From contig NZ_RYYS01000020.1 of the NCBI RefSeq assembly GCF_004138215.1, forward strand, positions 1 to 64,000: DNA of 64,000 nucleotides, given 5' to 3'. Below, piece by piece: positions 14,321 through 49,589 of this stretch. Source of the stretch: Anaerophilus nitritigenes (GTDB taxonomy: Bacteria; Bacillota; Clostridia; Peptostreptococcales; Thermotaleaceae). The notes beneath the pieces are model-generated. The model was not told the origin of the DNA and ran no database searches. It saw only the letters and a list, made by a program, of their open reading frames with translations. How positions within the stretch are numbered: the stretch's first letter is position 1; every line of letters begins with the position of its first letter. The translations under genes and the position numbers were made by a program.

Positions 14321-14619
14321 TGGCTTCTTTTTTAGGAAATAGAGTAAAAAATATGACAGATATTAATGATGAGGTTATAGTAAATAACATGCTTGCTGCT
14401 GGTAAGGGAGCAGCTGATGCATATTTAAATGCTACTATGACAAGTCCAACACCTGAGTTAAGAGCAATGTATGGCTCAAGTTTAAACCAAGTAGTAGTAG
14501 GACATACAGCATTAATGGAACTTGCTGTTAAAAAAGGTTGGGAAAAACCCTATAATTCTCCTTCTCAACAATTGACAGATGCTTATAATAAATCTAAAAC
14601 GACAACTCCAATAGAATAA
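14320..14619 (+). CDS. CotF-like spore coat protein
   Basis: A 99-residue protein matching the coat F domain: DINDEVIVNNMLAAGKGAADAYL, TSPTPELRAMYGSSLNQVVVGHTALMELAVKKGWEKPY, and a short polar tail. Such proteins are common as pairs or clusters in clostridial spore formers and are thought to be deposited in the coat by the mother cell. A GAGGAGGTAAA ribosome binding site lies within the end of the previous gene. Presence on the spore is inferred from family. Confidence 0.85.
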   Translation: MASFLGNRVKNMTDINDEVIVNNMLAAGKGAADAYLNATMTSPTPELRAMYGSSLNQVVVGHTALMELAVKKGWEKPYNSPSQQLTDAYNKSKTTTPIE

Positions 14620-14756
14620 TAATAGAAAAAAGAGTTTTAAAGAATGCTGTTTATATAAAGCAATAGATATTAAAATTTTTAGAGGTTGATAATTGATTTT
14701 TTATATGTTAAAATCAAATGATATAATCATTATGTAAAGAAAGGGAGACTTTTATC

Positions 14757-14804
14757 ATGAATATCTACATCCAATACAATGCATTACATCATCATCACCG
14801 CTAG
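14757..14804 (+). CDS. Histidine leader peptide
   Basis: A 15-codon frame with AAAGGGAGA nine bases upstream encodes MNIYIQYNALHHHHR and ends in TAG. Four consecutive histidine codons (14787-14798) sit right before the stop, as in the leader peptides of amino-acid operons. When charged tRNA-His is scarce a ribosome would stall here and alter the folding of the downstream stems. The peptide itself is probably non-functional. Its place 159 bases before histidyl-tRNA synthetase makes the match of codon and gene specific. Confidence 0.8.
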   Translation: MNIYIQYNALHHHHR

Positions 14805-14824
14805 AGACTTGTCCCTATGGAGAT

Positions 14825-14870
14825 CCATAGATACAGGTCTATTTATGTTTTGATAGGCTGGTATCTATGG
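14825..14870 (+). promoter_or_regulatory. Attenuator stem competing with flanking stems
   Basis: CCATAGATAC (14825-14834) pairs perfectly with GTATCTATGG (14861-14870). The left arm can instead pair upstream as CTATGGA-GA-TCCATAG (14815-14830). The right arm can instead pair with the terminator's left arm (TATGGG at 14866-14871 with CCCATA at 14903-14908). These exclusive choices are what a transcription attenuator needs. Directions of control are inferred. Confidence 0.65.
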
Positions 14871-14901
14871 GGTGAATGTCTTTATTGGATTGAATGGATT
14901 T

Positions 14902-14937
14902 ACCCATATAGGTTTACAGCCTATATGGGTTTTTTTA
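14902..14937 (+). terminator. Attenuator terminator before hisS
   Basis: ACCCATATAGG (14902-14912) pairs with CCTATATGGGT (14920-14930), followed by seven T. It ends 26 bases before the hisS ATG, so transcription that stops here would not reach hisS. Confidence 0.85.
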
Positions 14938-14962
14938 TATTTAAAAAATAGGAGGAGATTGT

Positions 14963-16285
14963 ATGAAAAATCAAATTATTAAACCATCTATATTACCAGG
15001 ATTTATGGAGTTACTTCCATCAGATCAGATATTATTTAACAAAATACTTGATATCATTAAGAAAAATTATGAAAGATTTGGATTTATTCCAATGGATACA
15101 CCTATCATAGAAAAATCAGAGATCTTACTTGCCAAAGGTGGAGGAGAGACAACAAAACAGATTTATAGATTTAATAAAGGGAAAAATGATATCTCACTTC
15201 GATTTGACTTGACAGTTCCATTTGCAAGATATGTTTCTCAGTATACTCAGGATCTAACTTTTCCTCTTAGAAGATATCAAATAGGCAAGGTATTTAGAGG
15301 AGAGAGAAATCAAAAGGGGAGATTTCGTGAGTTTTATCAATGTGATATAGATATTATTAATCGTGGAGAGTTAAATATTTTAAATGATGCAGAAATTCCA
15401 AGTATCATATATTCAGTATTTAGAGAATTAAACCTTGATTCATTCACTATATACATTAATAATAGAAAGCTTTTAAATGGTTATTTTGAATATTTAGAGA
15501 TAGAGAATAAGATAGATGTTTTAAGAACAATAGATAAGTTAGATAAAATAGGGAAGGATCAAGTTAAGGAAGAACTTAAGTTACTTTCTATAGAAAGTAA
15601 AGCTATTGAAAATATACTAAAATTTATAAAAATAAATGGTGAAAATGATGAAATATTGACTCAGTTAAAAAATTTAGGTGTTGAGAATGAGTTATTTAAA
15701 GAGGGATTAGATGAGCTTGAAAAAGCAGTGTATTATATAGGTTGTTTTGGAGTTCCTAAAAAATTTTATAATATCAATTTAAAAATAACAAGAGGATTAG
15801 ATTATTATACAGGAACAGTATACGAGACTATGTTGGATGATTATTTAAATATTGGTTCTATATGTTCTGGGGGAAGATATGATGATTTGGCTCAGAATTA
15901 TACTACAGAAAAATTGTCAGGAGTAGGAATTTCTATAGGACTAACTAGGTTGTTTTATCAATTAAGAGAAGCAAATATTCTAAAGATGAGTAGTGGTTCT
16001 ACGACTTCTCAAGTACTTGTAGTTCCAATGGATAAACAATATTTAGATGAATCTATAAATATTGTAAATAAACTAAGAAATAAAGATGTAAGAAGTGAAT
16101 TATATTTAGAAGATAATAAGCTTAGTAAAAAGCTTAATTATGCCAATAAGCTAAGAGTTTCATATATTATTTTAATAGGAAAAGAAGAAGTAGAAACTGG
16201 ATTGTTCACATTAAAAGATATGAAGACAGCAGTTCAATATAAGCTATCTATAGAAGAAATCTTTGAGATTTTGAATAATAGATAA
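14963..16285 (+). CDS. hisS: Histidyl-tRNA synthetase
   Basis: Class II synthetase of 440 residues that charges tRNA-His in the cytoplasm. It has motif 2 (RYQIGKVFRGERNQKGRFREF), the histidine-binding RGLDYYTGTVYE, SGGRYDDL, the motif 3 region GVGISIGLTRL, and a C-terminal anticodon-binding domain (QVLVVPM to the end). The anticodon domain and intact ATP motifs argue against the HisZ regulatory paralogue. GGAGGAGATT precedes the ATG. Expression is probably controlled by the histidine attenuator. The long insertion between residues 160 and 265 is family-typical. Confidence 0.93.
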   Translation: MKNQIIKPSILPGFMELLPSDQILFNKILDIIKKNYERFGFIPMDTPIIEKSEILLAKGGGETTKQIYRFNKGKNDISLRFDLTVPFARYVSQYTQDLTFPLRRYQIGKVFRGERNQKGRFREFYQCDIDIINRGELNILNDAEIPSIIYSVFRELNLDSFTIYINNRKLLNGYFEYLEIENKIDVLRTIDKLDKIGKDQVKEELKLLSIESKAIENILKFIKINGENDEILTQLKNLGVENELFKEGLDELEKAVYYIGCFGVPKKFYNINLKITRGLDYYTGTVYETMLDDYLNIGSICSGGRYDDLAQNYTTEKLSGVGISIGLTRLFYQLREANILKMSSGSTTSQVLVVPMDKQYLDESINIVNKLRNKDVRSELYLEDNKLSKKLNYANKLRVSYIILIGKEEVETGLFTLKDMKTAVQYKLSIEEIFEILNNR

Positions 16286-49300: not shown

Positions 49301-49377
49301 TAAAAAATAAATACACATATATAATATTGAAATAAAAAAGATATTTTGATACCATGAAATAAGACAAATAAGTGAGA

Positions 49378-49535
49378 ACAGGTGTTATAAGATTTAAAAA
49401 GGAAGTTCGGTGAAAATCCGACACAGCCCCCGCTACTGTAAGTGAGGATGAAATCGACAAAATGTCACTTGGTGATTGATCTGAGGAAGGCGTCGAAAGT
49501 AAGGTGATTCACGAGTCAGGATACTTGCCTGTTTT
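49378..49535 (+). ncRNA. Cobalamin riboswitch
   Basis: A B12-sensing RNA. The conserved AAGTTCGGTGAAAATCCGAC (49403-49422), CAGCCCCCGCTACTGTAAGTG (49424-49444), GAGGAAGG (49483-49490) and the B12-box segment AGTCAGGATACTTGCCTG (49514-49531) are all present in order. It lies 97 bases before the start of cbiA. When the coenzyme is bound, expression of the downstream operon should drop. Confidence 0.95.
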
Positions 49536-49589
49536 TATAAATTTTGTACCTTCGGCGGGAAGGGGAAATAGAACGATTCTACGTTTATG

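Follow-up and report, generated by a model that had tools for sequence, protein, structure and literature searches.

A putative histidine leader-peptide attenuator before a second hisS gene and its likely kinship with the trpB motif

The DNA that we analysed, a stretch of 64,000 nucleotides (the window), carries a leader with a run of histidine codons that very probably acts as a ribosome-mediated transcription attenuator of the genome's second gene for histidyl-tRNA synthetase, hisS. With a probability of roughly 0.8, the Rfam families RF04312 (the trpB motif) and RF02863 and the hisS leader of the window belong to one homologous attenuator family of Firmicutes, in which the codon run of the leader peptide alone adapts a conserved five-strand core to His, Trp, Tyr, Phe or Leu, which would make the family a ribosome-reading counterpart of the T-box. 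The window element alone is a further case of a kind predicted before, and the wider link to RF04312 is the part worth testing. If the link is true, a published riboswitch candidate that lacks a ligand gains a mechanism, a false ligand search is spared, and the codon run predicts the substrates of uncharacterised transporters.

The leader and the gene that it precedes

The leader comprises a short reading frame and five strands with alternative partners. Its parts, all on the forward strand, and the gene that follows are:

14686–14727, forward: candidate promoters TTGATA-17-TAAAAT (with a TG extension) and TTTATA-16-TATAAT, from a consensus scan only
14741–14747, forward: ribosome binding site of the leader peptide, AAGGGAG, 9 nt 5′ of the ATG
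14757–14804, forward: leader peptide reading frame, MNIYIQYNALHHHHR*, 15 codons, read and translated
14787–14798, forward: four regulatory His codons, CAT CAT CAT CAC, from the sequence and family-wide codon conservation
14805–14820, forward: strand 1, AGACTTGT CC CTATGG, from covariation of the 1:2 helix
14825–14843, forward: strand 2, partner of strand 1 (to 14840) or of strand 3, from covariation
14853–14872, forward: strand 3, partner of strand 2 or, as antiterminator, of strand 4, from covariation of 2:3 and permutation and shuffle tests of 3:4
14902–14912, forward: strand 4, the 5′ arm of the terminator, from covariation and a terminator scan
14920–14937, forward: strand 5 with the T tail, the 3′ arm of the terminator, from covariation and a terminator scan
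14824–14940, forward: match to RF04312 (trpB motif), 50.1 bits (gathering cut-off 59), E 3.8e-6 in a 501-base search
14963–16285, forward: hisS, second histidyl-tRNA synthetase paralogue, TIGR00442 392.6 bits (cut-off 286.75)

The basic proposal of the initial annotation was that hisS is preceded by a His leader peptide, alternative stems and a terminator; the sequence, conservation in some relatives and covariation bear it out. The reading frame (ATG AAT ATC TAC ATC CAA TAC AAT GCA TTA CAT CAT CAT CAC CGC TAG) has the 15 codons, the ribosome binding site and the four consecutive His codons that had been described; the His run does not, as was claimed, abut the TAG, because an Arg codon intervenes and the peptide ends in four His and one Arg. 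Neighbouring strands are all able to pair (1:2, 2:3, 3:4 and 4:5). The stems that the annotation had placed are all present at their positions, namely CTATGG with CCATAG within 14815–14830, CCATAGATAC (14825–14834) with GTATCTATGG (14861–14870) and TATGGG (14866–14871) with CCCATA (14903–14908), as is the T-tailed terminator. The first of these stems turned out to be longer than described: it extends to AGACTTGT (14805–14812) paired with ACAGGTCT (14833–14840) and begins at the base directly 3′ of the stop codon. A ribosome at the stop codon would largely cover strand 1.

Strand 5 proper spans 14920–14930 and the T tail follows. The terminator (14902–14930 plus the tail) is the sole terminator-like site in 14600–15000, where shuffled sequences average 0.1, and the promoter consensus scan of the same interval returned 6 sites versus 3.2 in shuffles. 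The 141 nt 3′ of the stop codon fold to −53.1 kcal/mol, versus −31 ± 3.6 for shuffled sequences (z −6.2), and none of 200 shuffles was as low. Judged by its sequence, the element has what characterises an attenuator: a short reading frame with a ribosome binding site and a run of four His codons matching the controlled gene, and mutually exclusive hairpins with an intrinsic terminator before that gene, the 3:4 pairing being the weaker part.

The controlled gene is a true hisS, but the genome's second. Residues 2–438 of its product align to the solved HisRS 3net_A, including the stretches RGL-YYTGTVYET and SGGRY, and it is one of two genes in the host genome that exceed the TIGR00442 cut-off. 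The other, canonical hisS lies on contig C51 (522 bits), directly behind a T-box (131.2 bits; L081:1225–1434); the earlier statement that hisS is normally under a T-box holds for this canonical copy. Downstream of the window hisS follow genes for a pseudouridine synthase and a chorismate mutase and aroQ, and no his genes. One genome with two HisRS genes, one behind a T-box and one behind a leader peptide, offers a test bed for why a cell needs both.

A model search of the host genome found the leader element only in its window copy. Three further weak matches were rejected: two on contig C74 (E 0.008 for the better one), neither with a visible leader, and one that is the terminator of the window element read on the opposite strand. 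Elsewhere in the window, a cobalamin riboswitch lies at 49363–49546 (104.3 bits).

Strand pairing and the proposed switch

In an alignment of 55 sequences that was fitted to the 2:3/4:5 structure, which favours the pairing figures, 94.0% of the cells of these two helices are paired, versus 84.0% when shuffled, and 26 of 28 pairs show changes on both sides; on each of five measures, all 500 shuffles fell below the alignment. In the outer 1:2 helix 83.6% of the cells are paired and the covariation score is 0.279 versus 0.211 (0 of 500 shuffles), with two of the five measures failing to beat shuffles (243/500 and 468/500). For all four neighbour pairings the duplex energy is lower within than between elements, and none of 10000 permutations was as low, in a test that related sequences inflate. 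The average energy is −13.7 kcal/mol for 1:2, versus −5.7 with one strand shuffled, and −11.2 kcal/mol for 3:4, versus −5.9. Helices 1:2, 2:3 and 4:5 covary, and 3:4 is supported less strongly, through the permutation and shuffle tests.

The leader residues overall show no protein-level conservation (27 synonymous and 71 other changes, P 0.14). The regulatory codons are kept better: across 44 close pairs, 15 of 181 comparisons show a change in them, versus 176 of 626 for the other leader codons.

In the mechanism that we propose, RNA polymerase would make a leader containing the 15-codon reading frame. When charged His-tRNA is scarce, the ribosome would stall on the His codons with its leading edge short of strand 1, so that 1:2 could form, strand 3 would be free for strand 4, the terminator 4:5 would fail and hisS would be transcribed. 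When His-tRNA is plentiful, the ribosome would reach the stop codon adjoining strand 1 and cover that strand; 2:3 and then 4:5 would form, and transcription would stop. Other Firmicutes use the same RNA core together with runs of Trp, Tyr, Phe or Leu codons, ahead of trp, aromatic-pathway and transporter genes. In this scheme we infer the stalling, the footprint, the order of folding and the regulation itself.

The footprint of a ribosome is about 13 nt. In the HisS/HisZ, NSS, BrnQ and ABC-permease groups, strand 1 starts a median 7–8 nt after the last regulatory codon (counted from its first base) and a median −1 to 2 nt after the stop codon. The SBP group differs, its stop codon lying inside strand 1. 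Across the family the medians move in the direction that the mechanism predicts: when transcripts end at strand 4 and the footprint is 13 nt, moving the ribosome from a stall at the first regulatory codon to the stop codon raises the median 2:3 pairing from 3.2 to 12.2 bp and lowers 1:2 from 10.1 to 0.0 bp and 3:4 from 5.2 to 3.6 bp. Among 172 elements, stalling adds more than 1 bp to 3:4 in 88 and, against the proposed logic, removes more than 1 bp from it in 46; the stalled state has the higher 3:4 pairing in no more than 43 of 85 elements of the HisS/HisZ group and in 2 of 8 of the SBP group.

For the window itself, the stall logic of the initial annotation, in which a free strand 1 allows 1:2 and the 3:4 antiterminator, agrees with the spacing and fares less well at equilibrium. 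At all of six ribosome positions and with each of three footprints, the full transcript prefers 2:3 and 4:5. Once the transcript is truncated at strand 4, a clear switch appears solely when the ribosome stalls at the first His codon and its edge is set at 13 nt; the outcome varies with the footprint. Because hairpin 1:2 (−17.5 kcal/mol) is weaker than 2:3 (−23.0 kcal/mol) and the full transcript ends in the terminator at equilibrium, the switch, if real, must be kinetic.

Occurrence of the element and agreement of codons with genes

The His codons and stems, which the initial annotation proposed to look for upstream of hisS in relatives, are kept there, but the leader occurs in just 4 of the 80 sampled loci encoding related HisS (L001, L002, L007 and L010). 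The upstream regions of some of the 80 are short (L001 has 331 nt and L074 has 3 nt). The four loci with the leader score at least 108 bits with a model built from them and the window, and nothing else exceeded 25 bits in the 84 sources searched with this five-sequence model. The leader is absent from L003 and L004, the other two closest HisS relatives. The ends of the four peptides differ (HHHHY, HHHH, HHHR and HYHR) and the core is alike; in a genome of the same genus as the window's (L087), 2 synonymous codon changes leave the leader peptide identical.

Our scans relied on general patterns for the T-box core and for Shine-Dalgarno sites. Over the 80 upstream regions the T-box pattern matched in L013 only, and Rfam, run on L001–L020, confirmed a T-box before hisS in L013. 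A T-box lies just 3′ of hisS in 12 of these 20 loci (L005–L012, L014 and L017–L019).

Two covariance models, R1 from 5 sequences and R2 from 55, trace the element further. With R1, 7 of the 16 family genomes searched give a match (E ≤ 0.01), as do 50 of 393 from the order (E ≤ 0.001), the host genome included. At E ≤ 1e-4, R2 matches in 22 of 391 genomes of the class and 10 of 398 of the phylum, tallies that include false matches, some weak ones being due to chance. The corresponding counts are 92 of 225 genomes in the order to which G763 belongs and 76 of 148 in that of G1001. The weak matches L169–L171 and L186–L189 were rejected by eye, having neither leader nor core. L168 and L185, which lie in different genomes, have a divergent core in common; neither shows an evident codon run, and one of them precedes a hisS-like gene. 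A single genome, G1175, holds five copies, with leaders for His (before hisS), His (before a binding protein gene) and Phe, Tyr and Leu (before symporter genes). This homologous family with other codons, related to RF04312, was absent from the initial annotation.

To compare codon runs with genes, we ran R2 on 187 sources (99 + 88), which took in 60 of the G763-order matches listed without a locus, not all of them, and obtained 182 matches at E ≤ 1e-6; removal of a reverse-strand echo (L215) left 181, and removal of 8 repeated cores left 173 unique elements. The leader reading frame was chosen by start codon, ribosome binding site, length and position, never by composition, and gene families were assigned through BLAST clusters and motifs, with representatives named. 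Before HisS, HisZ and HisD genes, 85 of 87 unique elements have His leaders; L183 and L185, before hisS-like genes, have no His run, L185 being counted as a miss here and excluded from the folding of ribosome states. Before NSS symporter, BrnQ, ABC permease, ABC_sub_bind and AroE genes, none of 67 leaders is of the His type (58 Tyr/Phe, 8 Leu and 1 Trp). All 8 elements before SBP_bac_3 amino-acid binding proteins have His leaders. Two NhaC-type transporters follow a His leader (HHQHHH, L089) and a Tyr leader (YYYYYR, L130), which predict histidine and tyrosine as their respective substrates. Nine elements have no assigned gene, and three of these (L144, L175 and L231) fall in the NSS cluster. 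Fisher's test of the match between codons and genes gives P 6e-42, a figure that overstates independence because the rows are related, and in which the substrates of the transporters are predicted solely from their leaders.

Genes after His leaders are hisS, hisZ-like genes and hisD; those after Trp leaders include trpB (twice), and those after Tyr/Phe leaders aroE (three times), DAHP synthase (once) and ABC_sub_bind (two). Inspected by eye, the 32 R2 elements of the order of G1001 comprise 24 Trp leaders, 6 Tyr/Phe leaders (one of which, L191, is a tie between two reading frames) and 2 His leaders, one of the latter before a HisZ-like gene that scores below the hisZ cut-off. Among 44 NSS-family symporters the leader type tracks the tree, with 4 changes versus 19.2 when shuffled; Leu leaders form one group, and swaps between Phe and Tyr are few. 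These comparisons suggest that the codons probably set the specificity of a shared RNA core.

Two loci stand apart in what follows the leader. L217 has an HHHY leader and an intact core 296 nt before an oxidoreductase-like reading frame (named by eye) rather than hisS, and in L260 the place expected for the gene, behind a Tyr/Phe leader, is taken by group II intron sequence.

Rfam families, alternative readings and precedents

The window match spans the full RF04312 model (positions 1–107), a significant homology of both hairpins, at a score that misses the gathering cut-off (50.1 versus 59 bits): the leader is a homologue of RF04312 and no formal member. The RF04312 model corresponds to strands 2–5; it starts downstream of the leader peptide and omits strand 1. 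The trpB motif thus has the same two hairpins (2:3 and the terminator) and a similar core, and the window leader differs from it in its His codons, in preceding hisS and in its score. Published in 2024 as a strong riboswitch candidate (SRC-39-1), the motif has more than 900 representatives in Firmicutes and Fusobacteria and most often precedes an uncharacterised ABC transporter gene (PMC11109978).

Our search with RF04312 was independent of R1 and R2, and several of its genomes were also found with R2. In 148 genomes, 88 match at E ≤ 0.001 and 35 lie above the cut-off; among 14 named controls, Lactococcus lactis alone matches, below the cut-off. At 30 loci located through Rfam's RF04312, the best leader reading frame has at least two Trp codons in 27 and one in the other 3, and it ends from 70 nt upstream to 5 nt inside the motif; at least two Trp codons appeared in 1.2% of 3000 dinucleotide shuffles. 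Loci of the order of G1001 reach the RF04312 cut-off in 11 of 20 cases and that of RF02863, ‘Enterococcus sRNA 2410’, in 2 of 20. In the order of G763, 20 loci were compared: RF04312 matches 9 of them at E ≤ 0.001 without reaching its cut-off, RF02863 matches 9 and reaches its cut-off on two, and the three His loci in the set match neither family.

The element could nonetheless be an attenuator that works by another strand logic, for instance by coupling to or blocking strand 2, with 1:2 merely a hairpin at which the polymerase pauses. The first hairpin of the E. coli trp leader is such a pause site, melted by the ribosome (PMC1183508), equilibrium folding yields no clean switch, and of all the pairings 3:4 is the most irregular; in the larger groups, however, the stop codon borders strand 1, and the complementarity of 3:4 beats permutation. 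We therefore rate this variant as possible but unlikely. Much more improbable is a riboswitch, in which the core of strands 2–5 would bind a small molecule directly and the upstream reading frame would be incidental. The candidate status of RF04312 and the conservation of the core sequence point that way, yet such conservation is also expected because strands 2, 3 and 4 each have two partners, and the authors of the motif themselves kept a classic attenuator possible (PMC11109978). A single core carries His, Trp, Tyr, Phe or Leu runs, and these fit the controlled gene in every case where its amino acid is known; this and the leaders with at least two Trp codons at 27 of the 30 Rfam-called loci argue against direct binding of a ligand.

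Two further readings have next to no standing. In favour of a T-box that senses uncharged tRNA-His, the host's canonical hisS and, in L013, a related hisS are each preceded by a T-box, but RF00230 finds no match at the window leader, either at the gathering score or at E up to 10, so that we regard a T-box here as extremely improbable. It is just as hard to credit that a constitutive terminator happens to follow a chance His-rich reading frame: short reading frames are common in AT-rich DNA, but relatives conserve the His runs and their stems covary.

The attenuator that we favour for the window has several counterparts. E. coli pheST is a classical attenuated synthetase operon. The T-box (RF00230) likewise reuses one RNA architecture for many amino acids through a change of codon; it binds tRNA, whereas the family described here would need a translating ribosome. 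The enterobacterial his attenuator (RF00514) resembles the window leader in its His-run leader and alternative hairpins, as set out with the trp attenuator in PMC1183508, and differs in its target. A proteobacterial His leader was rejected for the window, where RF00514 has no match at E up to 10.

The exceptional status that the initial annotation gave to a His leader before a Firmicute hisS finds no support in the literature. In 2010 such peptides had already been predicted for the hisS* and hisZ genes of Bacillus (PMC2965389); as in the window, the His codons precede a hisS paralogue of a Firmicute, reported in that case for bacilli, and the likeness is one of arrangement. Attenuators of the his operon were predicted in 2022 in Peptostreptococcaceae, Lutispora, the B. 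cereus group and Erysipelotrichales, with no RF00514 found in those leaders (PMC9413887). They share with the window three to five consecutive His codons and attenuator, terminator and antiterminator stems; their target is the his operon, and the available text of PMC9413887 makes no link to hisS, other amino acids or the trpB motif. Ribosome-mediated attenuation of cysS in Rhodobacterales (Cys leader uORFC-8-2) was proposed in 2021, as was a Phe leader (uORFC-13-1) before aroF in Acholeplasma (PMC8632094). These are likewise codon-specific, one before a synthetase gene and the Phe one before an aromatic-pathway gene; they come from taxa other than that of the window, and the likeness is one of description. 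In the portions of text available to us, which cover few subscription papers, we found none that joins these leaders to the trpB motif or to each other through this core.

RF02863 reaches its cut-off on leaders of the Tyr/Phe type (L282, L307, L229 and L259). The reported ‘Enterococcus sRNA 2410’ may be the terminated leader transcript.
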